Shown: positions 5,371-37,464 of the stretch, one piece after another
Numbering within the stretch: the stretch's first letter is position 1
How the letters are laid out: each line of letters starts with the position of its first letter
Source of the DNA: Crassaminicella profunda
Lineage (GTDB): Bacteria; Bacillota; Clostridia; Peptostreptococcales; Thermotaleaceae
Reading direction: 5' to 3'
Assembly (NCBI RefSeq): GCF_019884785.1
Contig: NZ_CP082326.1
Location: 3,651,355 to 3,715,354 of the forward strand
Length of the DNA: 64,000 nt
Program-made: the position numbers and the translations under genes
Notes under the pieces: generated by a model
Database searches by the model: none
What the model saw: the letters and a program-made list of their open reading frames with translations, nothing else
What the model was told of the DNA's origin: nothing

Positions 5371-5516
5371 AAAAAATAAAAAGAAATTATCTAGCGACGA
5401 CCTACTCTCCCAGGCAGTTACCCACCAAGTACCATCAGCGCTGAAGGGCTTAACTTCTGTGTTCGGTATGGGAACAGGTGTAACTCCTTCGCTATAGTCA
5501 CTAGATAATTTCTTTT
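5371..5516 (-). other. 5S rRNA flanking stem and operon end
   Basis: The sequences 5501-5516 and 5379-5394 are perfect 16-base complements (ctagataatttctttt) that would pair in the transcript around 5S rRNA. The 3' arm runs into a T-rich stretch (complement of 5371-5382). The structure can serve both as 5S processing stem and as terminator of the rRNA operon. Confidence 0.75.
5390..5506 (-). rRNA. rrf: 5S ribosomal RNA
   Basis: About 117 nt with the universal core cccataccgaacac (as complement) and matching termini. It is the last gene of the 16S-tRNA-23S-5S operon. Ends are approximate within a few bases. Confidence 0.95.
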
Positions 5517-5595
5517 CTAATATAAAATGTATATTCTTTTAAGCAGATTGCCAAAATCTATGATTTTGTCCAAATAAAATATTTAAGAATTTACA

Positions 5596-8697
<3,102 letters not shown>

Positions 8698-8732
8698 TAC
8701 AAATTCAAACCCTCTCTTTCGAAAGGCTTTAA

Positions 8733-8809
<77 letters not shown>

Positions 8810-8825
8810 CTACCTGAGAGTTAAA

Positions 8826-10473
<1,648 letters not shown>

Positions 10474-20440: not shown

Positions 20441-20473
20441 AAAAAAAACAGACAGATTAAAATCTGTCTGTTT
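20441..20473 (-). terminator. Terminator of the propionate operon
   Basis: Thirteen-bp inverted repeat aaacagacagatt/aatctgtctgttt followed on the minus strand by eight T residues, immediately after the mmdB stop. Confidence 0.93.
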
Positions 20474-20477
20474 ATAT

Positions 20478-21620
20478 TTATTGCCCGAACAATGAAAGCA
20501 TAACCCCTGCTGCAACAGCTGAACCGATAACCCCTGCAACATTAGGTCCCATAGCATGCATCAATAAGAAGTTTGAAGGATTTTCTTTTTGTCCAACAAC
20601 TTGAGAAACTCTCGCTGCCATTGGAACTGCTGAAACTCCTGCTGATCCGATCAATGGATTAATTTTTCCACCTGATAATTTGTTCATAATTTTTGCTAAG
20701 ATTACACCTGCTGCTGTACCTACTCCGAAAGCTAATACTCCTAATATGATGATTTTAATTGTTTCCCATCTTAAGAACGCACTTGCTTGTGCAGTAGCCC
20801 CTACTGAAAGTCCTAGTAAGATTGTTACAATATTCATTAATGCATTTTGTGCAGTATCAGCAAGTCTTCCAGTAAGACCACTTTCTTTAAATAAATTTCC
20901 AAGCATTAACATACCGATTAACGTTGCTGCTGGTGGAAGCATTAAAGATACTACCAATGTAACAATAATAGGGAACAATATTTTTTCAGTTTTTGAAACC
21001 TGTCTTAATTGGTCCATCTTAATCACACGCTCTTCTTTTGTTGTTAAAGCTTTCATAATAGGCGGCTGAATAATTGGTACTAGTGCCATGTATGAATAGG
21101 CTGCAACGGCAATTGCTCCTAATAATTCTGGTGCTAATCTTGAAGCTAAGAAGATTGCTGTTGGACCATCTGCCCCTCCAATAATTCCAATAGCTCCTGC
21201 TTGTTGCCCATTGAATCCTAAAAGGATTGCACCTATGAAAGTTGTAAATATTCCAAACTGAGCTGCTGCTCCTAAAAGTAGTGATCTTGGGTTGGCAATA
21301 AGTGGTCCAAAGTCCGTCATAGCTCCTACACCCATGAAAATAATTGGTGGGAATATTCCTAATTCATCTCCTTGGAAGAAATACCACAAAAGTCCTCCCG
21401 GCGCACCATGTCCGCCATGTGGTAACATCATATTCGCATAGGGTAAATTTGTTAAGAACATACCAAATGCAATTGGTATTAATAATAATGGTTCAAAACC
21501 TTTTTTGATGGCTAGATATAAAAGTAGAAATGACACAAGAATCATAACAATATTTAAAGGATGTTCGCCAAATCCATAAAAACCTGTACTCTGTAAAAAT
21601 TTGATGATAGTTTGTACCAT
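20478..21620 (-). CDS. mmdB: Sodium-pumping methylmalonyl-CoA decarboxylase, beta subunit
   Basis: 380 residues, about nine membrane segments. This subunit decarboxylates carboxybiotin and couples it to Na+ export. Signature stretches are '[15 protein letters not shown]' (with the sodium-site aspartate), '[14 protein letters not shown]', '[19 protein letters not shown]' and '[15 protein letters not shown]'. Beta subunits of oxaloacetate and glutaconyl-CoA decarboxylases look alike; the methylmalonyl assignment rests on the neighbouring mutase and epimerase. Last gene of the operon. Start after aaaggag. Confidence 0.95.
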
Positions 21621-21657: not shown

Positions 21658-22056
21658 CTATCCTAATACTACCAATACATCTCCTGCATTTACAGAAGCA
21701 CCCTTGCTTGTATTGATAGATACAACCTTACCGCCTGCAGGTGCCATAATTTCATTTTCCATTTTCATAGCTTCTAGGATTAATAATACTTGTCCGTTTT
21801 CAACAGTATCTCCTACATTTACTTTAATATCTAAAATCGTTCCTGGCATTGGAGCTGTTACTGAATTACCTCCAGCTGGAGCTGCTGCCGGTGCCGGTGC
21901 TGCTTTTGGTGCTGGTGCAGGCGCCGCTTTTGGTGCTGCTGGTCTTGGTGCTGGAGCTGCTGGTCTAGCTACTGGTGCTGGTGCTGCTACGCCGCCAACT
22001 TCTTCTACTTCCACTTCATATGCTTTTCCATTTACAGTTATATTAAACTTTTTCAT
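21658..22056 (-). CDS. mmdC: Biotin carboxyl carrier subunit of the decarboxylase
   Basis: 132 residues. The N-terminal about 20 residues ('[16 protein letters not shown]') are followed by a flexible Ala/Pro linker (about 23-62) and a biotinyl domain with the canonical 'EAMKME'; Lys98 is the biotinylation site. It shuttles carboxyl groups from the alpha to the beta subunit and needs BirA, encoded 5.5 kb away. The high Ala/Pro content makes its DNA locally GC-rich compared with neighbours, which reflects the linker rather than transfer. Confidence 0.96.
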
Positions 22057-22104: not shown

Positions 22105-22518
22105 TTAGAAGTTATTGTTCATTTGCTCCATTCTACCCATTCTTCCCCATGCAGGTGTCACGTCACTTACTCTTGTAATATTTCTTACAATAATATTGTG
22201 GGTAGAAGTTTGAAGGCTTGCTGCAATGGCTGCAGTAATTACTGCAACTAATTCTTCATCTTCTTCTTTTTCTAGCTCTGCTGGTGCAGGAGCTGAAACT
22301 GGAGCTGGAGTTGTAACAACTTTTACAGCTTCTTTTTTAGTTCCATGAATCATTTTAGACATGATTACAATTAACCCCCATAGAATACATAGTGCTACAA
22401 AGGTTACAAGCATTCCAAGGAACATTACATATAGAGAAGCTAACATTTTTTCGCCCATAGATAAGCTTTGCATAATCTCAGGATCGGAAAATTTTTCTAG
22501 CAATGATAATTTATCCAT
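22105..22518 (-). CDS. mmdD: OadG-family small membrane subunit of the decarboxylase
   Basis: 137 residues. One hydrophobic segment at about 28-55 ('LYVMFLGMLVTFVALCILWGLIVIM') is followed by an Ala/Pro/Glu-rich linker and a C-terminal 'LVAVITAAIAASL...TPAWGRMGRMEQMNNNF' tail typical of delta/gamma subunits. It anchors the alpha subunit to the beta subunit in the membrane. Shine-Dalgarno gagaggtg precedes ATG 22518. It sits between mmdA and mmdC as in other Na+-pumping decarboxylase operons. Confidence 0.9.
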   Translation of the reverse strand: MDKLSLLEKFSDPEIMQSLSMGEKMLASLYVMFLGMLVTFVALCILWGLIVIMSKMIHGTKKEAVKVVTTPAPVSAPAPAELEKEEDEELVAVITAAIAASLQTSTHNIIVRNITRVSDVTPAWGRMGRMEQMNNNF

Positions 22519-22627: not shown

Positions 22628-24175
22628 TTATAGAGGAATATTTCCGTGTTTTTTGCTAGGTCTTGTTTCTCTCTTTGACATAAGCATGTTAAATGCATCT
22701 ACAAGTCTTGGTCTTGTTGCATTTGGTTCGATTACATCATCAACATATCCTCTTTCTGCTGCTTTATAAGGAGTTGCGAATTCAGCTGTATATTCTGCAA
22801 TTTTCTTCGCTCTTTCTTCAGCTGGATTTTCTGCGTTTTTAATGTCATTTCTAAAGATAATATTTGCAGCACCTTGTGGTCCCATAACAGCGATCTCTGA
22901 ACTTGGCCATGCAAGTACCACATCTGCTCCTAATTCCTTATTACACATAGCAATATATGAACCACCATATGCTTTTCTTGTAATCAATGTTACCTTAGGA
23001 ACAGTTGCTTCACTATATGCATAAAGCATTTTTGCTCCGTGTCTGATGATTCCACCATATTCTTGGTTTGTACCTGGTAAGAATCCTGGTACGTCTACAA
23101 TATTTAGTAGTGGAATATTGAATGCATCACAGAATCTGATAAATCTAGCTGATTTATCAGAAGCATTAATATCTAAACATCCAGCTAAGAATTTTGGTTG
23201 ATTTGCAATGATTCCTACTGTATTTCCGTTAATTCTTCCAAAACAAGTAAGGATATTTTTAGCAAAATGTGGTTGTGTTTCGTAATAGTCACCATCATCT
23301 ACAATTTTAGAAATAATATCAAACATATCATATGGTTTGTTTGGATTATCTGGAAGTAAATCGTCAAGTTCTGGAACAAGTCTGTTAATATCATCTGCTG
23401 TTTCAAACTGTGGCGCTATTTCCATGTTATTAGATGGTAAGAAGCTAAGTAATCTTCTGATTTGCATGATACAATCTTCATCATTTTGAGCTACAAAATG
23501 TGCAACTCCACTTGTTGAGTTGTGTGTCATAGCTCCACCTAAAGCTTCCGCTGAAACTTCTTCACCAGTAACGGTTTTGATAACCTGTGGTCCTGTAATG
23601 AACATTTTACTCGTTTGGTCTACCATGTAGATAAAATCTGTTATTCCTGGAGAATATACAGCTCCACCTGCTGATGGACCCATAATAGCTGATATTTGAG
23701 GAATGACTCCTGATGCAATCGTATTATTAAAGAATATTTTTCCATATCCAGAAAGAGCATCTACAGCTTCTTGGATTCTTGCTCCACCTGAATCGTTCAT
23801 CCCTACAACTGGTGCACCTACTTTTAATGCATTTTGCTGTACTTTTACTATTTTTTCTGCGTGCATTTGCCCTAAAGAGCCACCAATAACTGTAAAATCT
23901 TGGGCATATGCATAAACTAATCTTCCATCAACCATACCATATCCAGTAACAACACCTTCTCCTGGAGCGTCTACCTTCTCCATTCCAAAGTTTGTACATC
24001 TATGCTTAACAAAAGCATCTAATTCAACAAAAGTACCTTCATCAAATAATAAATTCATTCTTTCTCTAGCAGTAAGTTTTCCAGATGCATGTTGCTTATC
24101 AATTCTCTTCACACCACCGCCAAGAGTGATTTTTTCCTTGCGTTTGCGCAAATCTTCTATTTTGTTATTTGCCAT
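22628..24175 (-). CDS. mmdA: Methylmalonyl-CoA decarboxylase alpha subunit (carboxyltransferase)
   Basis: 515 residues, a normal length for acyl-CoA carboxyltransferases. It moves the carboxyl group of methylmalonyl-CoA onto biotin on MmdC, leaving propionyl-CoA. The two crotonase-like halves show 'NDSGGARIQEAVDALSGYG', 'IMGPSAGGAVYSP', 'DVPGFLPGTNQEYGGIIRHG' and 'KAYGGSYIAM'. The same fold serves propionyl-CoA carboxylase beta, but the membrane subunits encoded next door point to the sodium-pump enzyme. It starts 50 bp after mce. Confidence 0.95.
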   Translation of the reverse strand: MANNKIEDLRKRKEKITLGGGVKRIDKQHASGKLTARERMNLLFDEGTFVELDAFVKHRCTNFGMEKVDAPGEGVVTGYGMVDGRLVYAYAQDFTVIGGSLGQMHAEKIVKVQQNALKVGAPVVGMNDSGGARIQEAVDALSGYGKIFFNNTIASGVIPQISAIMGPSAGGAVYSPGITDFIYMVDQTSKMFITGPQVIKTVTGEEVSAEALGGAMTHNSTSGVAHFVAQNDEDCIMQIRRLLSFLPSNNMEIAPQFETADDINRLVPELDDLLPDNPNKPYDMFDIISKIVDDGDYYETQPHFAKNILTCFGRINGNTVGIIANQPKFLAGCLDINASDKSARFIRFCDAFNIPLLNIVDVPGFLPGTNQEYGGIIRHGAKMLYAYSEATVPKVTLITRKAYGGSYIAMCNKELGADVVLAWPSSEIAVMGPQGAANIIFRNDIKNAENPAEERAKKIAEYTAEFATPYKAAERGYVDDVIEPNATRPRLVDAFNMLMSKRETRPSKKHGNIPL

Positions 24176-24225: not shown

Positions 24226-24630
24226 CTATTCTCTTTCACTTAATTCTAACAATACACCATTTGTACTCTTTGGATGACAAAATGCAATTTTTGCACCACC
24301 AGCACCGTATCTTGGTTTTTCATCAATCATTCTAACGCCTTTTTCTTTTAATTCTGCGATTGCTTCTTCAATATTTGGTACTCTTAATGCAACGTGCTGA
24401 AGTCCTGATCCTTTTTTCTCAATAAACTTTGCAATAGGGCCATCTGCATCCGTTGATTCTAATAGTTCTATTTCACTTTCTCCAACAGGTAAAAATGCTA
24501 CTTTTACTTTTTGTTCTTCTACTACCTCGGTTCCCTGTAAATCAAGTCCAAGGATTTCTTGGTAGAATTTTAGACTTTCTTCAAGATTTTTCACAGCAAC
24601 ACCAATATGGTCAACCTTTAATACTTTCAT
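24226..24630 (-). CDS. mce: Methylmalonyl-CoA epimerase
   Basis: 134 residues of the vicinal-oxygen-chelate fold, Shine-Dalgarno aaggagg. It interconverts (R)- and (S)-methylmalonyl-CoA, needed because mutase and decarboxylase use opposite isomers. Metal-binding residues are visible in 'KVDHIGVAV' (His), 'LQHVALRV' (His) and 'GVLLELSE' (Glu). It lies between meaB and mmdA, exactly where the pathway needs it. The 188-bp leader upstream carries short periodic repeats. Confidence 0.95.
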
Positions 24631-24818: not shown

Positions 24819-25754
24819 TTATGAATTTTTCATATTTTCTAGCACAGTTTCTGCAGCAGAATATGGATCATATTTTCTTAAAGCAACCTCTTCCGCCAAT
24901 TGATTTACCATTTCTTCTTTACTAGATTTATCCAAAATCATCTGCATCAATTTTTGCTGAATCAAATCAATAATTTCAATCTTACTGTTTTCTGTTCTTT
25001 TCTTTTGTAACTTTCCTGTTTCTTTTAAATGACTCATATGTTCTTTAATATGTTCTAGCAATTCATCAATACCTTGATTGTTCACAGCGATTACCTTTTG
25101 TACGGGAGGTCTCCAATCAGATTTATTAAAATCAAGCATCATTTCAATTTCTGTTGCAGTTCTTTTAGCACCATCTCTATCTGCCTTGTTTACTGCAAAT
25201 ACATCTCCAATTTCCATAATCCCTGCTTTTATTGCCTGAATATCGTCTCCAAGACCTGGTACCATTACCATAAGGGTTGTATCTGCATTTTTTGCAATAT
25301 CTACTTCTGATTGACCTACCCCTACTGTTTCAATAAATATATAGTCAACACCATAGATATCTAAAATTTTAACAGCAGCAGCTGTGGCCTTAGAAAGTCC
25401 ACCTAAATGTCCTCTTGTTCCCATACTTCTTATGAAAACACCAGGATCTATGCTTAATTCATTCATTCTTACACGATCCCCTAGGATGGATCCTCCTGTA
25501 AAAGGACTTGTAGGGTCAACGGCAATAACACCAACTTTTTTCCCTTCTCTTCTTAAAGCTTTTACAAGTTTATCTGTTAATGTACTTTTACCAGCTCCGG
25601 GAGGTCCTGTGATCCCAATAACATGAGCATTACCAGTTTTTTTATATAAATTTTTTAATATTTCAATAGCCTCATTGTCATGATTTTCTGCCATTGAAAT
25701 CAATCTTGCAACAGCTCTTTTTTCTCCTTTTAATAGTCTCTCACCTAAATCCAT
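24819..25754 (-). CDS. meaB: Methylmalonyl-CoA mutase-associated GTPase MeaB
   Basis: 311 residues from ATG 25754; the ATG five codons upstream lacks a ribosome site. MeaB is a G3E GTPase that gates delivery of adenosylcobalamin to the mutase and protects it from inactivation. Motifs: Walker A 'GPPGAGKST', Walker B-like 'VIAVDPTSPFTGGSILGDR', 'ETVGVGQSE' and the base-specificity 'NKAD'. It follows the small mutase subunit by 83 bp. Confidence 0.96.
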   Translation of the reverse strand: MDLGERLLKGEKRAVARLISMAENHDNEAIEILKNLYKKTGNAHVIGITGPPGAGKSTLTDKLVKALRREGKKVGVIAVDPTSPFTGGSILGDRVRMNELSIDPGVFIRSMGTRGHLGGLSKATAAAVKILDIYGVDYIFIETVGVGQSEVDIAKNADTTLMVMVPGLGDDIQAIKAGIMEIGDVFAVNKADRDGAKRTATEIEMMLDFNKSDWRPPVQKVIAVNNQGIDELLEHIKEHMSHLKETGKLQKKRTENSKIEIIDLIQQKLMQMILDKSSKEEMVNQLAEEVALRKYDPYSAAETVLENMKNS

Positions 25755-25837
25755 TAGCTCACCACCCATTTTGTAAATATACTATAATTGCAGACTACAG
25801 ACCCAATGGCCCGAATCTGCATTTATAGTTATGTTGA

Positions 25838-26236
25838 TTATTTTCTTTTAATGTTTTCTTTAATGTAATCTATTGTTACAGAAGTTGGTGTTCCAGGTGT
25901 AAATACTTCTTCTATTCCCTTTTCTTTTAAGAACGGAATATCTTCATCAGGAATAACCCCTCCACCAATTACTAAAATATCATCTACATTTTCAACCTTA
26001 AGAAGCTCTACAACTTTTGGAAGCAATGTATTATGTGCTCCAGATAAAATACTCATTGCAATACAGTCTACGTCTTCTTGGATAGCAGCATTTACAATCT
26101 GCTCAGGTGTTTGTCTAAGTCCAGTATAGATAACTTCCATCCCTGCATCTCTTAAAGCTCTTGCAATTACCTTTGCCCCTCTATCATGACCATCAAGTCC
26201 TGGTTTTGAAACTAATACTCTAATCGGTCTATCCAT
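25838..26236 (-). CDS. mcmB: Methylmalonyl-CoA mutase, cobalamin-binding subunit
   Basis: 132 residues from ATG 26236 (strong Shine-Dalgarno aaggagg); the longer TTG reading is rejected. It carries the B12 signature '[10 protein letters not shown]' whose His17 replaces dimethylbenzimidazole as the lower cobalt ligand, followed by 'SILSGAH' and 'VIGGGVIP'. In many bacteria this domain is fused to the catalytic domain; here it is a separate small subunit encoded 53 bp after the large one. Confidence 0.95.
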
Positions 26237-26289
26237 GAATTTTTCCTCCTTATTTAATCTTCCCAAATTCTATTTATATTAAAGATTTT

Positions 26290-27966
26290 TTATAATTGTA
26301 CGCTTTGTTGATATTCACCAAAAACCTCTCTCATCACACCACAAATTTCACCTAGTGTACCATAAGCTCTTACAGCATCTAAGATATATGGCATTAAGTT
26401 TTCATCACTCTTACAAGCTGTTCTTAAAGCTTCTAATCTTTCTTCTACTAATGCATTATCTCTTTTTTCTTTTAATGCTTGAATCTTACTCTTTTGTAAT
26501 TCTCCAACAGAAGGGTCTACTCTTAACAATCCTTTTGGAGCTTCCTCTTCGATTTGGAATTTATTCATACCAACAATGATTCTCTTATCATTCTCAATAT
26601 CTTTTTGATAGTTGTATGCTGCATCCATAATTTCTTGTTGGATATATCCATTGTCAATAGCTCTTGGTGCACCACCGATTTCATCGATTCTTTTAATATA
26701 TTTCATTGCTTCTTCTTCAATTGCTTTTGTTTTTGCTTCAATATAATATGAACCTGCTAATGGATCTACTGTATCAGCAGCACCACTCTCATATGCTACA
26801 ATTTGTTGTGTTCTAAGTGCTACTCTTACAGAATCTTCTGTAGGAAGAGCTAATGCTTCGTCTTTAGAATTTGTGTGTAAGGACTGTGTTCCACCAAGTA
26901 CTGCTGCAAGGGTTTGAATAGCAACACGAACAATATTGTTTTCTGGTTGTTGAGCAGTAAGAGTTGAACCACCTGTTTGTGTATGGAATTTAAGTGCCAT
27001 TGATTTAGCTTTTTTAGCACCAAATCTTTCTTTCATAATTCTTGCCCATAATCTTCTTGCCGCTCTATATTTAGCAACTTCTTCTAAAATATCATTGTGT
27101 GCATTAAAGAAGAATGAAAGTCTTGGTGCAAACGTATCTACATCAAGTCCTGCTTTAATTGCAGCATCTACATAAGCAATACCATCTGAAAGAGTAAATC
27201 CAACTTCTTGAGCAGCAGTTGAACCTGCTTCTCTGATATGATATCCAGAAATTGAAATCGTATTCCATAGTGGTACTTCTTTTGAACAATATTCAAATAT
27301 ATTTGTGATCAATCTCATAGAAGCTTCTGTTGGGAAGATATATGTTCCACGAGCAATATACTCTTTTAAGATATCATTTTGGATAGTACCTCTTAGTTTA
27401 TCAGCTGTTACACCTTGTTTTTCTGCTACAGCTATATACATAGCTAAAAGTACAGATGCTGGTGCATTGATTGTCATAGAAGTTGAAACTTTATCTAATG
27501 GAATCCCATCAAATAAAAGTTCCATATCTGCTAATGAGTCAATAGCCACTCCAACTTTACCAACTTCTCCTTCTGCTAATGGATGATCTGAGTCATATCC
27601 TATTTGTGTTGGAAGGTCAAATGCAACAGAAAGACCCATTGATCCTTGTTCAATTAAATACTTATAACGTTTATTAGATTCTTCGGCAGTAGCAAATCCT
27701 GCATACATACGCATTGTCCAAAATCTTCCTCTATACATAGTAGGTTGCACACCTCTAGTATAAGGGTAACTTCCTGGCATACCTAAATCATTTTCATAAT
27801 CAAACCCTTCAATATCAAGAGGGGTATAAAGTCTATTTACAACTGCTCCTGACCCTGTTTCAAATACTTCTTTTCTTTCAGGTCTTTTTTTTGTAGTTTC
27901 TGCTACCTTTGCTTCATATGCATCAAAACTTTCTTTAATTTTTCCTAGTTTCTCTTTTTCAAACAT
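26290..27966 (-). CDS. mcmA: Methylmalonyl-CoA mutase, large catalytic subunit
   Basis: 558 residues from ATG 27966 with Shine-Dalgarno aaaggagg; an open extension of 47 codons upstream has no ribosome site and no family similarity. The TIM barrel interconverts succinyl-CoA and methylmalonyl-CoA. Motifs: '[20 protein letters not shown]', '[14 protein letters not shown]', '[11 protein letters not shown]' and 'FFNAHNDI'. It lacks the B12 domain, which is encoded by the next gene. This two-subunit form is common in Clostridia and archaea. Confidence 0.97.
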
Positions 27967-28057
27967 TGTTCTCCTCCTTTTAAAGCTTATATATTTATCT
28001 AATATATTTTTAGAATACCATAAATCAGAATTTTTTGTACTAAGTTTCGCGAAGTAT

Positions 28058-28107
28058 ATGTGTATACATTGTGTTATATAACATACATGTGTGTTTGGCA
28101 TACACAT
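28058..28107. other. Nested palindromes before the mutase gene
   Basis: A perfect 12-bp palindrome tgttatataaca (28072-28083) is flanked by the inverted arms atgtgtat (28058-28065) and atacacat (28100-28107). It lies between the CoA-transferase and mutase genes and could be an mRNA processing or regulatory structure. Confidence 0.45.
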
Positions 28108-28112
28108 CTACG

Positions 28113-29612
28113 TTATTTTATTATCATACTTCCTGTTTGTAAAAATCGATCATGCCAAGATAACGCCTCTCCTATTAAATGAGGTTCATGCCTGAATTTT
28201 CCTCGTTCTGCCCTTTCCAAATAATCCATCAATCTATCCTTATAGATAGGATGAGCACAATTATTTATGATTTTTCTTGCTCTTTCTCTTGGTGAAGTCC
28301 CTCTTAAATCAGCGATACCCTGTTCTGTTACAATGACTTCTACATCATGTTCTGTATGATCTACATGGGATACCATAGGAACAATAGAGGAAATATCTCC
28401 ATTTTTCGCTGTTGAAACCGTTGTAAATATGGATAGATATGCATTTCTAGTAAAATCTCCCGATCCTCCTATCCCATTCATCATACGAGATCCCATAATA
28501 TTCGTTGAATTCACATGTCCATACATATCTACTTCTATAGCTGTATTCATAGCAATTACACCAAGTCTTCTAGCCACTTCTGGATGATTACTAATTTCCA
28601 TTGGTCTTAAAATACAATGTTTTGCATAATGTTCCATATTATTAAGAAGTCTCTCTAGCCCTTCTTCTGATGGGGTAAAAGATGTTCCAGAAGCAATCGT
28701 TACTTTTCCAGCATCAATAAGGTCAAACATAGAGTCCTGAATTACTTCTGTATAGCAAGTAAGATTTTCAAATTTCGAATCAACTAACCCTCCTAACACT
28801 GCATTTGCAACAGAGCCTACTCCAGATTGTAGGGGTAATAAGTTTTTGGGAAGTCTTCCCATTTTTACTTCATGCTCAAAGAAATCTATAATATACCCTG
28901 ATATTTTTTTAGAATTCTCATCAATAGCACCTAAGGGTCTAACTTTATCTGGTATATCTGTCACTACAACAGCAACAATTTTTTCTGGATCACAAGGTAT
29001 ATAAGACGTACCAATTCGATCTTTAGGGTGAATAATAGGAATTGGTTTTCTGTGTGGTGGCCTTTCAGGGATATAGATATCATGCACTCCTTCTAATTCC
29101 ATGGGTTGACTTATATTGATTTCAACAATAATCTTATCCGCATTTTTTATGGCATGGGGCATAGCTCCTACAGAAGTAGTAGGAACAATTCCACCTTCTT
29201 CTGTTATTGCTAAAGCTTCCACTAAAGCTACATCAATATTTCCAAAAAATCCATAATCAATATATTGGGGCACATGACTAAGATGCATGTCTTGATACAT
29301 AAGATTTCCATTATTTAAAGCATTTCTTGAATCTTTATTTGTCTGATAGGGAAATCTTCTTTTCATAACACCGCTTCTTGTTAGAGCACCATCTAATTCA
29401 TCCCCTACAGAGGCTCCTGTAATAATAGTTATTCCTAACTTTTCTCCTTCTTCAGCTCTTTTGGCTAATGCTAGTGGTACTGCCTTAGGATATCCAGAAG
29501 GAGTAAAACCACTTGTAGCAACAATCATACCATCCTTAATAAACATAGATGCTTCTTGTGGTGTCATAATTTTGCTTTCTAAATCATTTCTTCTCAATCT
29601 ACCTTCTAACAT
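28113..29612 (-). CDS. scpC: Succinate/propionyl-CoA (acetyl-CoA) CoA-transferase
   Basis: 499 residues of the acetyl-CoA hydrolase/CoA-transferase family I, Shine-Dalgarno aaggaggg. Motifs: 'TSGFTPSGYPKAVP', 'LPLQSGVGSVANAVLGGL', 'CYTEVIQDSMFDLIDAG' (catalytic Glu region) and 'GIGGSGDFTRNAYLS'. In the propionate route it exchanges CoA from propionyl-CoA to succinate, releasing propionate and succinyl-CoA. The related Cat1 enzyme uses acetyl-CoA, so the exact donor is inferred from the neighbours. Confidence 0.92.
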   Translation of the reverse strand: MLEGRLRRNDLESKIMTPQEASMFIKDGMIVATSGFTPSGYPKAVPLALAKRAEEGEKLGITIITGASVGDELDGALTRSGVMKRRFPYQTNKDSRNALNNGNLMYQDMHLSHVPQYIDYGFFGNIDVALVEALAITEEGGIVPTTSVGAMPHAIKNADKIIVEINISQPMELEGVHDIYIPERPPHRKPIPIIHPKDRIGTSYIPCDPEKIVAVVVTDIPDKVRPLGAIDENSKKISGYIIDFFEHEVKMGRLPKNLLPLQSGVGSVANAVLGGLVDSKFENLTCYTEVIQDSMFDLIDAGKVTIASGTSFTPSEEGLERLLNNMEHYAKHCILRPMEISNHPEVARRLGVIAMNTAIEVDMYGHVNSTNIMGSRMMNGIGGSGDFTRNAYLSIFTTVSTAKNGDISSIVPMVSHVDHTEHDVEVIVTEQGIADLRGTSPRERARKIINNCAHPIYKDRLMDYLERAERGKFRHEPHLIGEALSWHDRFLQTGSMIIK

Positions 29613-29644: not shown

Positions 29645-31018
29645 TTACATTGGCATATTATGGAGAATTATTGTGAATATTACCATTCCCAATAGGGCAA
29701 ATGGATAAGTTGCACCATATCCAGCTGCTGGATCATCACAACCTACTGCATCAATAGCAGCTCCTAAACCTGGTGTCGAAGTCATTCCTCCACATATTGC
29801 TCCAGATAACATAATCCAATTAATCTTAAATATATATCTTCCAATAAAAAATCCTAAAATCATAGCTACAGCACCTACAACTAAACCAACAATTGCTAAA
29901 TACCAGCCAGTTCCTAAAAGAGCATCAAATACTTTAAATCCATATCTTAATCCTACAATTGCCAAGAAAAATGCTAATGCAAGCTGTCTGATCACTCCTA
30001 ATATTTTATTATTCATTCTAAAATTCATAAATCCAATTTTTCCTATATATCCAAGAATTAAAGACCCTATTAAGACACCACCCGTAGAACCTAAGCTAAA
30101 ATATCCAAGGGGTCCTAAAAATATCTTTATTTTTCCTATGGTATATCCTAAAAAACAAGCAACAGAAAAAGCCATTAAATCAAAAGAGGTTTCTTCTATC
30201 TCTGTGGTAGCAGCAGCTTCTCTTCTGGCTTGACTCATTTCATCTCTTAATTCCTTCAATTCTTTATTAGCATCAATTCCAAATATTCTTGGGAAAAAGT
30301 TTACTGCAATGATTACAATAATAACACCAAATGGGTATCCAATAGCATGCCCGACCCCAATACCCGCCTCAGCATTTCTTACAAATTGAGTTTTTTGTTC
30401 TTCCGTTAGGTTCGGTGTATTTTCAGGAGTAAGTGTTCCAGTCTCATCAAGTAATTTTAAAAATCTTACTTTTTCTTTATTTGAAAGGGTTTCATATTTT
30501 TCCACCCAATCTGTTGAATGTCCTTTAGCTGTTTCAATGGCAGCTGCAAGACCGGGAGAACTAGTAAGTGCCCCTGTATATACTCCTGATACTTCATAGG
30601 GATTGGCTTCATTACTAATAACTGTCATCCCATAGGTAGCTGCAGCTCCTAAAAAGGTTATCAAAAAACCTAATAATACAAATTTAGCTCCATATCTTCT
30701 TAGTACAGTTCCCATATCCTTTGCTGCTAATAACCCTACTGCTGCAACAAACAATACTAAAAACAGGATAAAGAAATCTTTCCCAACAACTCCAGAGTTG
30801 ATTAACTTTTGAGCTGATTTATATCCAACTTCTCCTTCATTAAACCCTTTTGCATAACCTAAAACCCACCACCCTATGAGCAGCCCACTAAACAAAGTTC
30901 CAGATATGCCAAAATTAAATTTTCCAAATTTTATTTTTCCAAAAACAAGTCCTGTAAATACTGCTATAAACATCAATATAAAAGGATTGGTAATCCAAGC
31001 TACTAAATCAAATTTCAT
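29645..31018 (-). CDS. AspT/YidE-type putative anion exchanger
   Basis: 457 residues with about ten hydrophobic segments arranged as two similar halves, each ending in the hallmark 'TSSPGLAAAIE' (first half) and 'TSTPGLGAAID' (second half) of the aspartate:alanine exchanger superfamily. A hydrophilic region (about 185-290) separates the halves. Substrate unknown; as first gene of the succinate-propionate operon, export or exchange of succinate, propionate or another carboxylate is the natural guess. It is directly downstream of a sigma-54 promoter. Shine-Dalgarno aaggagg. Confidence 0.82.
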   Translation of the reverse strand: MKFDLVAWITNPFILMFIAVFTGLVFGKIKFGKFNFGISGTLFSGLLIGWWVLGYAKGFNEGEVGYKSAQKLINSGVVGKDFFILFLVLFVAAVGLLAAKDMGTVLRRYGAKFVLLGFLITFLGAAATYGMTVISNEANPYEVSGVYTGALTSSPGLAAAIETAKGHSTDWVEKYETLSNKEKVRFLKLLDETGTLTPENTPNLTEEQKTQFVRNAEAGIGVGHAIGYPFGVIIVIIAVNFFPRIFGIDANKELKELRDEMSQARREAAATTEIEETSFDLMAFSVACFLGYTIGKIKIFLGPLGYFSLGSTGGVLIGSLILGYIGKIGFMNFRMNNKILGVIRQLALAFFLAIVGLRYGFKVFDALLGTGWYLAIVGLVVGAVAMILGFFIGRYIFKINWIMLSGAICGGMTSTPGLGAAIDAVGCDDPAAGYGATYPFALLGMVIFTIILHNMPM

Positions 31019-31099
31019 GCTTTTTTCCTCCTTTTTTATTATTTTTTAAATACCCTCAAATCCAAATGAATACGTTTTCCCTCCTTCACTCATATACAT

Positions 31100-31116
31100 T
31101 GCAAAAGTCATGCCAA
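31100..31116 (-). promoter_or_regulatory. Sigma-54 (-24/-12) promoter of the propionate operon
   Basis: The minus strand reads TTGGCATG-ACTT-TTGCA, matching the consensus YTGGCACGrNNNTTGCW almost completely, with exactly 10 bp between the GG and GC doublets. Predicted transcription start is near 31090, about 70 bp before the transporter ATG. The preceding gene encodes a sigma-54-type activator. Confidence 0.85.
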
Positions 31117-31225: not shown

Positions 31226-32560
31226 CTATTTTTCAATACTATACTTTTCAATCTTCCTTCTCAAAGTCACACGAGAAATTCCTAAGCTTTTTGCCGTTTT
31301 TGAAATATTCCAGTTGTTCTCCTTCAACGCTCTATTGATGGCCTGCATCTCAACATCTTCAAGATTACTACTTACTACGCTCTTCCCTTTCTCCTCACTA
31401 TAATAACTCATAAGATTTTCAGGTAAGTGATCTACATCAATCCAACAATCCTCTTGGAAAATCATAACCCTTTCGATAAAATTTTTTAATTCTCTAACGT
31501 TTCCTTTCCATCCATAATTCTTACAAATTTCCATAGCCTCTTTTGTCATACCCTTTACTTTTTTATTTAAAGCACCATTATATTGATTGATAAAATAATC
31601 AATCAATACTTTAATATCCTCTCTTCTCTCTCTTAAGGGAGCTGTATGGATAGGAACTACATTCAATCTATAGTACAAATCTTCTCTAAAATTCCCTTTT
31701 TCTATCCCTTTTTGCAAGTCTTTATTGGTTGCTGCGATAATATTTGCACTAAATTCAATCTCTTTTATTCCTCCAATACGTCTAAATTTCTTTTCTTGTA
31801 GTACTCTTAAAAGCTTTGCTTGAAGAAGTATATCCATATCCCCAATTTCATCTAAAAACAAGGTGCCTTCATTTGCTTCTTCAATGAGTCCCTTCTTTAA
31901 CTGCTTTGCATCAGAAAAAGCACCTTTTTCATACCCAAACAATTCACTTTCTTGCAGATTCTTAGGGATAGCTGCACAATTCAGCGCAATATAAGGCTTA
32001 TTTTTTCTAATTCCATTAAAGTGGATTGCCTTTGCAATGATCTCTTTCCCTGTTCCACTTTCTCCTTGAATCAATATAAATGTATCATAGGGCATATTCC
32101 CCACTTTTTGAGCAATATTTTTCACATTTTGTATGGCTTTACTTTCTCCAATAATTTCTGCTATCTCTTTTTTTTCTTGATTTGAAATCTCCTGTGCTTT
32201 TTTTATATACTTTATATTGTCATTAATGCTTTCTTTAATCTCTTCTATATTAAAAGGTTTTGTAAAATAATCATTTGCACCTAATTTCATTGCTTCAACA
32301 GCCAATCTTACCTCACTAATATAAGTAATCATCATAATAAAGCTATTTTTATCCTTTTTTCTTATATGCTTTAAAACATCAATTCCATTGATTCCTGGTA
32401 AATTAATATCCACAATACATATATCCGGTCTCTCTTTATCAAAAATTTCAATCCCTTCTTCACCAGAAGCTGCTGTTAAAATTTTTATTCCTAATTTGCT
32501 TAAAGCTATACGTAGGGACAATCTTATACTCTTTTCATCATCAACAATCAATAATTTCAT
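31226..32560 (-). CDS. Sigma-54-dependent response regulator (NtrC/DctD type)
   Basis: 444 residues from ATG 32560 (Shine-Dalgarno ggggga). Receiver domain (about 1-120) with phospho-acceptor Asp51 in 'IVDINLPG'. AAA+ domain (about 135-370) with Walker A 'GESGTGKE', Walker B 'GTLFLDEIGD' and an unusual sigma-54 contact loop 'GAFSDA' (213-218) instead of GAFTGA. The C-terminal Fis-type helix-turn-helix is 'NISKTAKSLGISRVTLRRKI'. The start overlaps the kinase gene by 20 bp, so the two are coupled. It probably activates the sigma-54 promoter next door. Confidence 0.94.
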   Translation of the reverse strand: MKLLIVDDEKSIRLSLRIALSKLGIKILTAASGEEGIEIFDKERPDICIVDINLPGINGIDVLKHIRKKDKNSFIMMITYISEVRLAVEAMKLGANDYFTKPFNIEEIKESINDNIKYIKKAQEISNQEKKEIAEIIGESKAIQNVKNIAQKVGNMPYDTFILIQGESGTGKEIIAKAIHFNGIRKNKPYIALNCAAIPKNLQESELFGYEKGAFSDAKQLKKGLIEEANEGTLFLDEIGDMDILLQAKLLRVLQEKKFRRIGGIKEIEFSANIIAATNKDLQKGIEKGNFREDLYYRLNVVPIHTAPLRERREDIKVLIDYFINQYNGALNKKVKGMTKEAMEICKNYGWKGNVRELKNFIERVMIFQEDCWIDVDHLPENLMSYYSEEKGKSVVSSNLEDVEMQAINRALKENNWNISKTAKSLGISRVTLRRKIEKYSIEK

Positions 32561-34718
32561 CTGTCTCCCCCTCAAAGGATAATATAAATTCCGTATACTT
32601 TGAAACCTCACTCCTTACAGAAATGGTTCCTCCATTATCCGTTATAATTTTATGAACAATAGAAAGCCCCAATCCTGTTCCATCTTCTTTTGTTGTAAAA
32701 AAAGGATTGAATATCCTATCCATCATTTCCTCATTTATCCCTTCCCCATTATCTTTTATAGAAAGAACTAATGTATTTGGGTTAACTTTATATACTTTTA
32801 TTTCAATAACTCCGTATGATCCTACTGCTTGAATACTATTTTTCAGTATATTTACCAATGCCTGTCTCATAGCAGATGGATCTACTTTTATAAAGGGAAT
32901 TTCACGTGGAAAGTTTTTGATCACACGTATGGTTTTATATTTTATCTCTGGTTTTAAAATATTAAGTGTACTATCTATAATGTGCATTATATTCACAGAA
33001 ACTTTTTTATTATTATTCATACGAGTAAACTCCAAGAAATTAATCACAATATTATTAAGCATATCTACTTCTTCTCTTAGGGCAACTATTAATTCTTCTC
33101 TTACTGTTTCATGGTCTGCATGATCTTTTAGCACCTCCAAAAGATTTGTCATTCCTGCTAAAGGATTCCCTATTTCATGTATAATAGATGAAGATAGTTC
33201 TCCAATTGTTTTCAACCGATCCTCTCTTCTTAATTGTTGTTCTAACATTTTAATCTGGGTTAAATCCTTCATCAAACAAACCAATCCAATAGATTTATTC
33301 GCATCATCATATATGGGAGAAACCATCATGCTAATAGGCACATCTATGGCATCATTTCTTTTAATTTTGTATTCTGCTTCCATAAACATATTTCCTTCTA
33401 AATTTTTATTGAAAATATCTTTAGGTAAATTTAAATTTCTCATCAATTCATTTACATATTTGCCAATAATATTTTTACTTTCAATGCCCGTAATTTTTTC
33501 AGCTGTTCTATTAAAGATAACAATTTTACCTTGATCATTAATAACAAAAATACCACTTCCTGCACTTCTTAATATATTATTTAAATATTTTCTTGTATCC
33601 TTTTCTCTCTTATGAGAACTTTTTAAATCCTCTATTTTCATGCTTAACTCTTTGCTCATACCACAAAAAGCAAGCTCTAATTCACCAATCTCATTATTTT
33701 TTGTAACTTTAAACCCTTTCATGCCTTGCTGAATATCTTTACTTATATTTCTTACATAAACTACTAATTTTTCTATAGGATCTGTAATCGTATATGCTAA
33801 AGAAATACTTAATAGAAAAGAGATGGTCATGATAGCAATAATCAATGGTGTTAGTTCTTTTTGGATTTGTTTGATTTCTTTTCCTATATATTCTTCATCT
33901 CGTTCAACAATAATCATCCCTTTATAGTTTTCAATTTTACTAAAAGATACATATACCTTATGACCATTGTCTCTATATTGGCCTACTCCTTTTGAATATT
34001 TTTTTAAAATTTCTTCTAATCCTATGACTTTATTTTCTATTTCAATATTCCTTTTTAATGAAAGTTCTTTAAATATTTCATTATAATCTGGGCTGACTAG
34101 TATTTTTCCATCCTCATCAACTACATAAATTTTTCCATCATATGAATGCTGTGTTTTTTCTATAATCTTACTAATTGCCTTTAGTGGAACCCCTCCACCG
34201 ATAATTCCCTTTATTTCTCCTGTATGTTTATCTAAAATAGGAGAAACAATTATAATATGAGGCTGATTTAATAAACTACTAATAAAAACCTTACTAATAT
34301 ACGTTTCTTTATTTTTAATAAGATACTGATAATACTCTCTTTCTGTATAATCTCTACGATAAATAATATCGTTATGAGGAATGCTATAGGTAATTTCCCC
34401 ATCAGCTGTCATGTAAAACATAACATCTAGCCATCTATAGCTTTTATAAATTTGATTGATTTCCTCTTTTACTTTTTCCATATCCTCTACATTAGCATTC
34501 TGAGCCATATATTTCACTGTATTTTTAGCATCGGACAAATACTGGTTTACCTGATCTGAAATCATATTGGCAATAATCGTATTTTTATTAATAATATGCT
34601 GCCTCATTTGTTTGCTCGCAGTTCTATAAGTTATATACGTACTTCCTATAACAGCAAATATAACCAAAGTAATAATGAGTATGGGTATTTTTACCTTTAA
34701 ACTCCTCACATTTCTCAC
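32541..34718 (-). CDS. Sensor histidine kinase, Cache-HAMP-PAS
   Basis: 725 residues. Membrane helix at about 9-30, an extracytoplasmic double-Cache domain to about 285 ('WLDVMFYMTADGEITYSIP', 'GEIKGIIGGGVPL'), a second helix, HAMP, a PAS domain (about 385-480), then HisKA with His514 in 'IIHEIGNPLAGM' and an ATPase domain with 'NILKNSIQAV', 'DNGEGI' and 'GTGLGLSIV'. It resembles DctB/DctS-like dicarboxylate sensors in layout. It partners the overlapping response regulator. The ligand is unknown; a C4-dicarboxylate or propionate is suggested by context only. Confidence 0.92.
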   Translation of the reverse strand: MRNVRSLKVKIPILIITLVIFAVIGSTYITYRTASKQMRQHIINKNTIIANMISDQVNQYLSDAKNTVKYMAQNANVEDMEKVKEEINQIYKSYRWLDVMFYMTADGEITYSIPHNDIIYRRDYTEREYYQYLIKNKETYISKVFISSLLNQPHIIIVSPILDKHTGEIKGIIGGGVPLKAISKIIEKTQHSYDGKIYVVDEDGKILVSPDYNEIFKELSLKRNIEIENKVIGLEEILKKYSKGVGQYRDNGHKVYVSFSKIENYKGMIIVERDEEYIGKEIKQIQKELTPLIIAIMTISFLLSISLAYTITDPIEKLVVYVRNISKDIQQGMKGFKVTKNNEIGELELAFCGMSKELSMKIEDLKSSHKREKDTRKYLNNILRSAGSGIFVINDQGKIVIFNRTAEKITGIESKNIIGKYVNELMRNLNLPKDIFNKNLEGNMFMEAEYKIKRNDAIDVPISMMVSPIYDDANKSIGLVCLMKDLTQIKMLEQQLRREDRLKTIGELSSSIIHEIGNPLAGMTNLLEVLKDHADHETVREELIVALREEVDMLNNIVINFLEFTRMNNNKKVSVNIMHIIDSTLNILKPEIKYKTIRVIKNFPREIPFIKVDPSAMRQALVNILKNSIQAVGSYGVIEIKVYKVNPNTLVLSIKDNGEGINEEMMDRIFNPFFTTKEDGTGLGLSIVHKIITDNGGTISVRSEVSKYTEFILSFEGETDEIIDC

Positions 34719-34771: not shown

Positions 34772-34800
34772 AAAAAAAAGAACCTAAATTTTAGGTTCTT
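34772..34800 (-). terminator. Terminator of the fumarase-malic enzyme operon
   Basis: Ten-bp stem aagaacctaa/ttaggttctt with a 3-nt loop, overlapping the malic enzyme stop and followed on the minus strand by eight T residues. Confidence 0.92.
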
Positions 34801-35966
34801 GCTACACCATCTTCCTTAGCAGCTTTCATAACAGCTTGAGCTACTACCTTTGAAACTTCTTTATTAAATGGACTCGGAATAATTTTATCTTCCCTTAATT
34901 CCTCTTTCCTTAAAACATTTGCAATGGCAAAGCTAGCCTTTACCTTCATATTTTCTGTAATCTGTTTTGCCCGTATATCAAGAGCTCCTCTAAATATCCC
35001 TGGAAATGCCAATACATTGTTAATTTGATTAGGATAATCCGATCTGCCGCTTCCTACAATAAACGCACCTGCCTGTTTTGCATCTTCTGGCATTATTTCA
35101 GGAATAGGATTTGCCATAGCAAATACAATAGCTCTTTCATTCATAGATGCTATCATTTCTTTTGTTACAATATTCGGTGCTGAAACACCTATAAAAACAT
35201 CTTTGTTTTTCATGATATCTGCAAGACATCCCTTTTGCTTTTTTAGATTTGTCACTTTTGCTATTTTCTCTTGTGCTGGATTTAATCCTTTTGCACCTTC
35301 AAATATTGCTCCCTCTTTGTCACAAAGAACAATCTCCTTAATCCCTGCAGTTAACAATAGTTTTGTAATAGCAATTCCTGCTGATCCAGCCCCATTGATC
35401 ACTACTTTCGCACTTTCAAGTGCTTTATCTGCTAACTTTAACCCATTAATAAGTCCTGCTAATACCACAATAGCCGTTCCATGCTGATCATCATGAAAAA
35501 CAGGAATATCTAATTCTTTTTTTAATCTTTCTTCTATCTCAAAGCATCTAGGAGCTGAAATATCCTCGAGATTGATTCCACCAAACATAGGCTCGATTAG
35601 TTTAATGGTTTTTACAATTTCATCCGTATCTTTGCTATTTAAGCATATAGGAAAAGCATCTACATCTGCAAAGCTCTTAAAAAGCACAGCCTTTCCTTCC
35701 ATAACAGGAATAGCTGCATGAGCTCCTATATCTCCAAGACCAAGAACTGCTGTTCCATCGCTCACTACGGCTACCATATTTCCCTTAGAAGTATATGTAT
35801 AAACTGTTTCTTTATCTTTATGGATTTCTCTACAGGGCTCTGCTACACCAGGCGTATATGCTGTAGACAAATCATCTTTATTTTCTAAAGATACTTTACT
35901 CGTAACTGAAATTTTTCCTTTATTTTCTTTGTGCATAGTAAGTGCCAACTTATTATAATCAATCAT
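34791..35966 (-). CDS. mae: Malic enzyme (oxaloacetate-decarboxylating malate dehydrogenase)
   Basis: 391 residues, the short bacterial form. It converts malate to pyruvate and CO2 with NAD(P)+. Motifs: 'AYTPGVAEPCREI' (Tyr catalytic), 'VSDGTAVLGLGDIG', 'GGINLEDISAPRCF' (metal site), 'FHDDQHGTAIV' and the nucleotide loop 'NGAGSAGIA'. Its ATG directly abuts the stop of the fumarase beta gene. With fumarase it joins pyruvate to fumarate, feeding or draining the succinate-propionate module. Confidence 0.96.
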   Translation of the reverse strand: MIDYNKLALTMHKENKGKISVTSKVSLENKDDLSTAYTPGVAEPCREIHKDKETVYTYTSKGNMVAVVSDGTAVLGLGDIGAHAAIPVMEGKAVLFKSFADVDAFPICLNSKDTDEIVKTIKLIEPMFGGINLEDISAPRCFEIEERLKKELDIPVFHDDQHGTAIVVLAGLINGLKLADKALESAKVVINGAGSAGIAITKLLLTAGIKEIVLCDKEGAIFEGAKGLNPAQEKIAKVTNLKKQKGCLADIMKNKDVFIGVSAPNIVTKEMIASMNERAIVFAMANPIPEIMPEDAKQAGAFIVGSGRSDYPNQINNVLAFPGIFRGALDIRAKQITENMKVKASFAIANVLRKEELREDKIIPSPFNKEVSKVVAQAVMKAAKEDGVART

Positions 35967-36533
35967 TTATTTGTCCTCCTCTGATTTTGCATATTTTTCT
36001 CTTTCTGTCTCATAAAGGTTATTGCCCTCATGATCAATAACAACGATGGCAGGAAAGTCTTCTACTTCTAATTTCCTAACAGCCTCTGGTCCTAAATCTT
36101 CATAAGCAATGATTTTAGCTTTTTTAATAGAATCAGCAATGAGGGCTGCTGCTCCCCCAATTGCAGCAAAATATACGGCTCCTTCTCTTTTCATTCCATC
36201 TATTACCTTTTGATTCCTTAATCCTTTCCCAATCATTCCAGTTAGCCCTTTTTCAAGGAGTGGTACCGTTAAATCATCCATACGATAACTAGTAGTAGGT
36301 CCAGCAGAACCAATAGGTTTTCCTGGCTTTGCAGGAGTTGGTCCTACATAATAAATAATAGCATCTTTTACTTCAAATGGAAGTTCTTCTCCTTTATTGA
36401 TCGTATCTATTAATCTTGCATGAGCCGCATCTCTTCCTGTATAAATGGTTCCTGATATATAGACCGTATCCCCTGCTTTAAGATTTTCTACCTTCTCTTT
36501 TGTTAAAGGTGTAGTTATTTTTTTTATAGTCAT
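35967..36533 (-). CDS. fumB: Fumarate hydratase class I, beta subunit
   Basis: 188 residues from ATG 36533; a GTG three codons upstream is part of the ribosome site gaggtg. It forms the C-terminal (swivel) half of the iron-sulphur hydro-lyase. Motifs: 'DTVYISGTIYTGRDAAH', 'YYVGPTPAKPGKPIGSAGPT' and 'VEDFPAIVVIDHEGN'. It is the partner of the alpha subunit encoded 14 bp upstream. L-tartrate dehydratase is an alternative for this family, but malic enzyme next door favours fumarase. Confidence 0.92.
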   Translation of the reverse strand: MTIKKITTPLTKEKVENLKAGDTVYISGTIYTGRDAAHARLIDTINKGEELPFEVKDAIIYYVGPTPAKPGKPIGSAGPTTSYRMDDLTVPLLEKGLTGMIGKGLRNQKVIDGMKREGAVYFAAIGGAAALIADSIKKAKIIAYEDLGPEAVRKLEVEDFPAIVVIDHEGNNLYETEREKYAKSEEDK

Positions 36534-36547
36534 ATGATTCACCTCGC

Positions 36548-37390
36548 CTATAGAATTATTTCTTCATGTCTTGCCGCATGACAATTTATATTTACAGCCA
36601 CAGGAAGTCCTGCTATATGGGTTGGAAAACTTTCTACATGCACAGCTAAAGCTGTTGTATTTCCTCCTAGTCCCTGAGGTCCGATCCCTAAATTATTTAT
36701 TTTTCTTAGTAGCATTTCTTCTATTTCTCTTAAATGTTCTTTTTCATTATGAGACCCTATAGGTCTTGTTAGTGATTTTTTTGCAAGAACTGCTGCTTTA
36801 TCTATTGTTCCTCCAATGCCAACCCCTACAACAATAGGAGGACATGGATTCGGCCCTGCATCCATTACTGTTTTTGTAACAAAATCTATAACCCCATTCA
36901 CACCATCGGAAGGCTTTAGCATTTTTGTTTTGCTCATATTTTCACTTCCAAAACCCTTTGGCGCAAAAGTAATTTTTATATTTTCTCCTGGTACCATATC
37001 ATAATATATAATAGCTGGCGTATTATCTTTCGTATTTTCTCTTATCAAAGGATCTTTTACTACTGATTTTCTTAAATATCCATCTTTATAACCTCTTCTT
37101 ACTCCTTCATTAATGGCTTCACTAATATTTCCTCCAACTAATTGTACTTCTTGTCCAACTTCAATAAAAAATACAGCCATTCCTGTATCCTGACAAATGG
37201 GCATTTCTTCATTTTTAGCAATTTCAGCATTTTTTATTAAATTCTTTATGATTTCTTTTCCAACAGGAGAAGCTTCCTTTTTTTCTGCTTGTTCAAAAGC
37301 TTTAATCACATCTTCTCCTAAATAAAGGTTTGCTTTTATACATAGATTTCTTACCGTATTTTCAATCTCTTTTACATCTATTCTTCGCAT
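36548..37390 (-). CDS. fumA: Fumarate hydratase class I, alpha subunit
   Basis: 280 residues from ATG 37390 (Shine-Dalgarno aaggag); GTG two codons upstream rejected. Three cysteines that ligate the [4Fe-4S] cluster are visible in 'ICQDTGMAVFF', 'GPNPCPPIVVGVG' and 'NINCHAARH'. It interconverts malate and fumarate and would be oxygen-sensitive, which fits an anaerobe. It opens the fumA-fumB-mae operon, and a TATAAT is visible about 30 bp upstream of the gene without a clear -35. Confidence 0.94.
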   Translation of the reverse strand: MRRIDVKEIENTVRNLCIKANLYLGEDVIKAFEQAEKKEASPVGKEIIKNLIKNAEIAKNEEMPICQDTGMAVFFIEVGQEVQLVGGNISEAINEGVRRGYKDGYLRKSVVKDPLIRENTKDNTPAIIYYDMVPGENIKITFAPKGFGSENMSKTKMLKPSDGVNGVIDFVTKTVMDAGPNPCPPIVVGVGIGGTIDKAAVLAKKSLTRPIGSHNEKEHLREIEEMLLRKINNLGIGPQGLGGNTTALAVHVESFPTHIAGLPVAVNINCHAARHEEIIL

Positions 37391-37464
37391 TTTCACTTCT
37401 CCTTTTTATATTTTCATATAATAACCATTATACACTAAATTTTCAAACCGGAAATATACAACTA

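Follow-up and report, generated by a model that had tools for sequence, protein, structure and literature searches.

A predicted two-component sigma-54 switch, with a palindrome inside a terminator hairpin, before a putative succinate-to-propionate operon of Crassaminicella profunda

The operon and its regulatory neighbours

The window, by which we mean the whole 64,000-nucleotide stretch of Crassaminicella profunda DNA analysed here, carries ten genes on the minus strand that begin with an AspT-family transporter and end with the membrane subunit of a decarboxylase (Table 1). Their predicted products, which include a CoA-transferase, a mutase, an epimerase and a biotin-dependent decarboxylase with membrane beta subunit, match a methylmalonyl-CoA (succinate) decarboxylation operon, and the operon appears to turn succinate-type acids into propionate. 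The genes are closely packed, with gaps of 32 bp after the transporter and 5 bp after the CoA-transferase frame; the largest gap (188 bp) precedes the epimerase gene and holds a sigma-70-like site (10/12) at 24766-24738, sites of this kind being no commoner than in shuffles. A scan of the operon strand gave just three short hairpins inside the operon, all within coding sequence. The first 40 or so codons of the mutase frame are probably untranslated and the true start lies inside it, since ortholog similarity begins at query positions 35-46 in many alignments. Elsewhere in the window a complete rRNA operon (16S, 23S and 5S, with a tRNA in the spacer) occupies 5389-10395 on the minus strand.

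Table 1. Features of the locus, with positions counted in the window
Feature	Position	Strand	Basis or remark
dCache/PAS/HisKA histidine kinase	32541..34718	minus	domain matches; frame overlaps regulator
NtrC-type response regulator (receiver, AAA+, Fis HTH; GAFSDA loop)	31226..32611	minus	domain matches
Degenerate second half site GGAAACATTTGAA, 21 bp upstream of palindrome	31224-31212	minus	half-site conservation
Palindrome GGTAAAAAAATTACC, GGTAA-N5-TTACC, likely activator site (enhancer)	31203-31189	minus	leader conservation
Terminator-like hairpin of regulator gene	about 31214-31175	minus	16-bp stem, 5-nt loop, T run; contains palindrome
Predicted sigma-54 promoter, 5'-TTGGCATGACTTTTGCA-3'	31116-31100	minus	-24 TTGGCATG, -12 TTGCA
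cre-like element GGAAAACGTATTCA	31067..31080	minus	transcribed leader, about +10 to +23; function a guess
AspT-family (Asp-Al_Ex) transporter, first operon gene	29645..31018	minus	domain match
Succinyl-CoA:acetate CoA-transferase (ScpC type)	28113..29612	minus	731.5 bits, cut-off 500
Methylmalonyl-CoA mutase large subunit	26290..28107	minus	family matches
Methylmalonyl-CoA mutase B12-binding subunit	25838..26266	minus	family matches
MeaB GTPase	24819..25769	minus	family matches
Methylmalonyl-CoA epimerase	24226..24630	minus	169 bits, cut-off 115
MmdA-like decarboxylase carboxyltransferase subunit	22628..24175	minus	965.5 bits, just below mmdA cut-off 998.8
Decarboxylase gamma subunit	22105..22518	minus	OAD_gamma
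Biotin carrier subunit	21658..22056	minus	Biotin_lipoyl
Decarboxylase beta subunit (sodium pump)	20478..21620	minus	OAD_beta
Terminator-like hairpin at operon end	20446..20473		T-rich tail on both strands
Malic enzyme and two-subunit fumarase	34791..37396	minus	context, outside the promoter's operon; closed by terminator-like hairpin 34800-34778

Upstream of the operon lie the genes of a response regulator and a sensor kinase. In the regulator PF00072, PF00158 and PF02954 all score above their cut-offs, and its true start is probably near 32560. All 17 aligned regulator sequences retain the receiver's acidic pair, phospho-acceptor Asp, Thr and Lys, and the recognition stretch of the HTH is kept among the aligned orthologs. 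The sigma-54 loop reads GAFSDA in ten of 16 orthologs, that of the window included, GAFTEA in three, GAFSEA in two and GAFSGA in one; in a further ortholog, from genome G122 (G000 designates the source genome and the other G numbers the comparison genomes), it reads GSFSDA. Of 30 paralogous loci of the source genome 28 are readable, and 27 of these retain F-T-G. As far as the accessible text of the reports goes, the G266D change of NorR, which affects the second Gly, releases the protein from control by its regulatory domain, and promoters are still opened (PMC2941729); Desulfovibrio activators with GAFSEA, GAFSGA or GAFTDA were judged compatible with function (PMC4641369); and a pull-down with Dickeya VfmH, which has GAFTDA, gave no RpoN, the cause being unexplained (PMC10714721). 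We regard GAFSDA in place of GAFTGA as a caution as well as an oddity.

The nearest solved sequence to the sensor of the kinase is KinD (E 4.4e-7), and the dCache domains of chemoreceptors, including PctA and PctB, are also near. KinD binds pyruvate, and the Pct receptors bind amino acids. The structure model of the sensor, built from two rows, had a mean pLDDT of 48.6 and was too poor for a fold search.

Promoter, palindrome and hairpin in the leader

The motif at 31116-31100 has GG at 31114/31113 and GC at 31102/31101, that is, both invariant doublets of a sigma-54 promoter with the fixed -24/-12 spacing, and is the sole perfect match to TGGCAYRN4TTGCW in a scan of the 64-kb window. Loose matches carry little meaning, since 50 were observed with two or fewer mismatches versus 26 expected. 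Among 5000 dinucleotide shuffles of the 207-nt leader, a single one contains an exact site. Transcription is predicted to start near 31089, which is 12 nt downstream of the C in the -12 element and 71 nt ahead of the ATG. A sequence-only reading of this DNA had proposed the promoter, its orientation towards the operon, a sigma-54-type activator gene directly upstream and an overlapping Cache-sensor kinase, and each of these stands: the site shows no mismatch to the strict consensus on the minus strand and points at the ten-gene minus-strand operon, the receiver/AAA+/Fis-HTH regulator stops at 31226, and the dCache/PAS/HisKA frame overlaps that of the regulator. The same reading described the whole as a full signal-to-operon switch; the parts that it listed are there, but it overlooked the likely activator-binding site and the terminator hairpin around it.

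This putative binding site is a palindrome that conserves GGTAA-N5-TTACC exactly in 14 of 16 leaders (shuffle mean 0.008 leaders); the exceptions are G007, with the two changes of GATAA-N5-TTATC, and G020, which is without a palindrome. It is found at the regulator loci solely in the regulator-adjacent leader and does not occur in the 415,327 bases of 26 comparison loci. Its left end lies 87-89 bp upstream of the T of the -24 element in nine of the 16 leaders (-88 in the window), at -78 in G009 and farther away in the remaining ones. The distance from the first palindrome to the regulator stop, 22-30 bp in 13 of the 15 palindrome-bearing leaders, is about as constant as that to the promoter. 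In 12 of the 16 leaders the first palindrome is preceded at 19-22 bp by a half site, GGWAAM; in place of this arrangement G077 and G069 carry two palindromes with a spacing of 21 bp. A pair of dimer sites separated by two helical turns is a possible form of an NtrC-type enhancer. Second copies of the palindrome occur at -88/-89 in G005, G008 and G012, and these may trace to one event. Judged by comparison of the leaders, the conserved palindrome likely supplies the upstream enhancer that NtrC-type activators require. The source genome contains one further TGGTAA-N5-TTACCA, inside a long repeat-protein frame, and the reversed control is found in four places, so that the genome as a whole shows no excess of the palindrome taken alone.

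The hairpin that follows the regulator gene in the window (fold -22.5 kcal/mol, z -5.7) has the palindrome as its inner stem; it is missing from the program's own terminator scan of the window. The outer stem covaries with its partner among G000, G001, G009 and G013, and at some copies in G005, G008, G012, G015, G069, G077 and G122 it is short or absent; the inner letters hold. We read inner letters that are fixed and an outer stem that changes or is lost as two constraints, an operator inside and a terminator outside; the steady distance of the first copy from the regulator stop and the possible common origin of the -88/-89 copies speak against this. It is conceivable that enhancer and terminator constitute one dual-use element, a DNA operator and at the same time the RNA terminator of the activator's own gene, such that a bound ring could alter the end of its own transcript, and that the clade-wide GAFSDA/GAF[ST]EA loop, with Asp or Glu at the second Gly, gives an unusually low activation threshold; this combined proposal is speculative and we consider it unlikely.

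Beyond the predicted start the leader contains a cre-like element with seven of the nine fixed letters of the cre box (the consensus used for scoring has nine). Its GAAAACG is present in nine of the 16 transcribed leaders, against a shuffle mean of 0.16 and a maximum of 2 (1000 shuffles). The best CcpA match of the genome scores 353.5 bits, below the cut-off of 442.35. Catabolite repression of the operon through this element is possible. No common leader peptide around GAAAACG was seen by eye in several leaders.

Distribution of the switch among genomes

The sequence-only reading had named an rpoN gene in the genome and conservation of the site in relatives as checks. The gene is present at G000:C1:2229107-2229583 (PF04552, E 3.6e-63, profile search of the own genome). 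The strict consensus has 35 exact matches in the whole genome versus one for the reversed pattern, and 18 of the 35 lie 1500 bp or less from a strong activator AAA+ domain (random mean 0.83, maximum 7 in 2000 draws), the set comprising 33 strong sigma-54-activator domains after omission of the five weakest of 38 matches. Ten of the 30 genome matches examined as loci fall within open frames 100 codons or longer, and an exact match is found within the coding sequence of the CoA-transferase gene of G008; the strict consensus is thus informative in the genome, yet not infallible. Next to one exact site and its neighbouring activator AAA+ domain, at G000:C1:4312511-4313437, lies a stop-containing sequence that matches the sigma-54 DNA-binding domain weakly (E 1.7e-4).

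A search of 78 genomes, our own included, revealed orthologs of the regulator in 15 others at 56-88% identity, the next full-length match being at 47%. The comparison comprised all 15 regulator loci together with 26 loci devoid of the regulator, namely 25 with the propionate operon or a second AspT copy, and L034; the comparison loci cover some of the mutase-bearing genomes found. All 15 regulator-ortholog loci possess a same-strand site 101-257 bp behind the regulator stop (one mismatch or none, GG and GC intact). With the window this makes 16 of 16 leaders, eight of them with an exact site, where shuffles give a mean of 0.03 leaders, though the leaders are not independent, four coming from one genus. 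At the 26 regulator-less loci there is no site directly before the transporter, CoA-transferase or mutase. Ten matches with at most one mismatch occur in nine of these 26, within genes or distant, and were not counted against the model: eight are in mapped genes, one of these in the malic enzyme gene of L034 about 800 bp before AspT, and the other two lie 1.3 kb behind the operon (L152) and 6.9 kb before AspT (L154). Four of the eight in mapped genes are near the start of the CoA-transferase gene, in a conserved coding stretch, with more in L034. Where the regulator stands apart from the propionate operon, as in seven genomes (G005, G008, G010, G012, G014, G020 and G077), the site accompanies the regulator.

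A composite pattern (palindrome, 55-85 bases, promoter) was sought in 393 genomes of the order. It occurs in 11, once each and always beside this activator, and its reversed control in none. Ten of the 11 are among the 16 known leaders, and the six that the pattern misses deviate in spacing or in the palindrome. The eleventh, G122, was newly found by this blind search; its match immediately follows a regulator ortholog and precedes a CaiB-like CoA-transferase and a MadL-like gene. In a class-wide sample the pattern was present in two of 391 genomes, our own and G550; the G550 match was taken as chance as it sits in an open frame, which we take to resemble a pseudouridine-phosphate glycosidase.

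What stands behind the promoter differs among the relatives. An AspT-type transporter with propionate genes is found in G000, G001, G002, G003, G007, G009, G013 and G015. The load of G010 is a MatC_N/CitMHS transporter, and the start of the next gene is alike in G005, G008, G012 and G014; in G069 a transporter of this type is followed by CoA-transferase and mutase genes. G020 carries a CaiB-type CoA-transferase with MadL and MadM, as do G077, by resemblance, and G122, as far as seen; in G020 and G077 an MmdA-like gene is present at the margin of the locus. Propionate genes thus stand behind the promoter in only nine of 17. The conserved target is, by gene content, a dicarboxylate transport or CoA-linked decarboxylation module of AspT, MatC or MadLM type. 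The earlier view of the element as a switch for the propionate operon is supported for this locus and is refined as to the common target, the methylmalonyl-CoA route being one of several loads.

Several of these loci show features of their own. Between AspT and CoA-transferase in G001 lies a 125-codon open frame of no recognised kind (L125, 8851-9666). In G015 an additional exact sigma-54 site, TGGCATGTAAATTGCA, lies behind AspT, some 80 bp ahead of the CoA-transferase gene (L134). The MatC-type transporter gene of G010 is followed by genes for a 4Fe-4S protein and an aldehyde ferredoxin oxidoreductase (L131, 8791-11000). The source genome also carries a second AspT-like transporter (79% identical) at G000:C1:3336447-3337826, with a CoA-transferase (63%) behind it and without regulator, palindrome or sigma-54 site; comparable second copies are present in G001, G002, G003 and G009.

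Proposed mechanism, alternatives and known systems

Building on sequence elements whose presence, conservation and co-segregation are observed, we propose, with a probability of roughly 0.75, a dedicated two-component sigma-54 switch that works like DctB/DctD and drives the succinate-to-propionate operon. The dCache domain of the membrane kinase would sense a small extracellular carboxylate, most likely a C4-dicarboxylate such as succinate, and the kinase would phosphorylate the response regulator. The ligand is a guess, succinate being the first because the CoA-transferase exceeds the ScpC cut-off. Dimers of the regulator would bind the tandem site at 31224-31189, made up of half site and palindrome, and its AAA+ ring would loop to the sigma-54 RNA polymerase at 31116-31100 and open the promoter. 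The transcript would begin at about 31089, end with the hairpin at 20473-20446 and cover the transporter through decarboxylase genes, and imported succinate would be decarboxylated to propionate with sodium pumping, while the terminator behind the regulator gene would keep read-through out of the operon.

That the sigma-54 motif is a chance match, the operon being read from a sigma-70-type promoter, is extremely improbable. Exact motifs do occur within genes; nevertheless, we reject this explanation because of the shuffles (16 of 16 leaders versus 0.03 expected) and the co-segregation of site and regulator, and no minus-strand sigma-70-like site lies between 31226 and 31018 among the 60 listed of 71. 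It is also very unlikely that the palindrome is merely the stem of the regulator terminator and that the activator binds elsewhere or acts without it. The strong hairpin with its T run in the window, the constant distance to the regulator stop and the covarying outer stem would all fit a stem, but a stem of any sequence would serve termination and the core letters are nonetheless fixed, and at copies in seven genomes the outer stem is short or absent. The extra copies at -88/-89, the tandem copies 21 bp apart and the absence of the palindrome from the comparison bases likewise speak for the operator.

Two further alternatives concern the extent of the regulated unit and the nature of the signal. 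If the switch controlled the transporter only, the CoA-transferase, mutase and decarboxylase genes would have promoters of their own. For five genomes with a MatC-type load the mutase operon is elsewhere and without a site, and the stretch between AspT and the CoA-transferase gene measures about 800 bp in G001 and G003, so that the pathway there may have its own promoter; the sigma-70-like site before the epimerase gene points the same way. Against this, the first two gaps of the window operon are very short, no convincing terminator precedes 20473, and in G069 another transporter is directly followed by CoA-transferase and mutase genes, which leaves a transporter-only switch distinctly unlikely. 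Somewhat more room must be given to a signal other than a dicarboxylate, for example pyruvate or an amino acid, as the ligands of the nearest solved sensor sequences would suggest; the loads, which are MatC-, MadLM- and AspT-type modules, argue against it, and we hold it to be rather unlikely.

In kind, the proposed system is an NtrC-type sigma-54 switch. The rhizobial DctB/DctD pair consists of a Cache-type membrane kinase and an NtrC-type regulator which acts from a tandem enhancer on the sigma-54 promoter of the dicarboxylate transporter gene dctA. Our locus resembles it in the type of kinase and regulator, in the tandem, here predicted, enhancer and in a sigma-54 promoter before a dicarboxylate transporter, and differs in the transporter families, the fermentation genes behind the transporter, the HK-RR order and the terminator-embedded operator. 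No DctB/DctD model was among the best 25 NCBIfam matches of 79 for the kinase and 124 for the regulator. Among the matches listed the best were AtoS and AtoC, of which kinase (278 bits, cut-off 646) and regulator (420, cut-off 714) are not members. PrpR is a one-component sigma-54 activator and sensor for propionate breakdown; it shares with our system a sigma-54 activator and propionate, whereas here the system is two-component and, by gene content, serves propionate formation. The regulator scores 272.8 bits against TIGR02329 (PrpR), whose cut-off is 499.2.

The accessible part of Nie et al. 2019 describes 39 sigma-54 activator groups in Clostridiales, about 10% of the activators having receiver domains; its Table 1 gives no succinate, propionate, mutase or malonate target (PMC6615313). 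As in the groups presented there, our regulator lies beside its predicted target, a putative UAS precedes a sigma-54 promoter (TTGGCATN5TTGCT in that study) and fermentation genes are predicted to be controlled. The CitP group of that study, which controls the transporter gene citA, may be, or overlap, the MatC-type branch of this regulator. The accessible text of a 2025 survey names dicarboxylate symporters in Proteobacteria, and also C4-dicarboxylate sensors, and leaves the methylmalonyl-CoA decarboxylase route unmentioned (PMC12316311). Our search of open-access papers, mostly by listing, turned up no paper describing a methylmalonyl-CoA decarboxylase operon under sigma-54 control, nor one describing an enhancer inside a terminator. 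Apparently new are the target, the operator, its place in a terminator and the exchange of loads.

If the proposal is true, a regulated succinate-to-propionate route, an energy-conserving fermentation of anaerobes, comes under sigma-54, and a defined operator becomes available with which genomes can be searched. One sensor-regulator pair, standing with its operator and promoter before three dicarboxylate modules (AspT, MatC and MadLM), would then represent natural rewiring by a complete switch.
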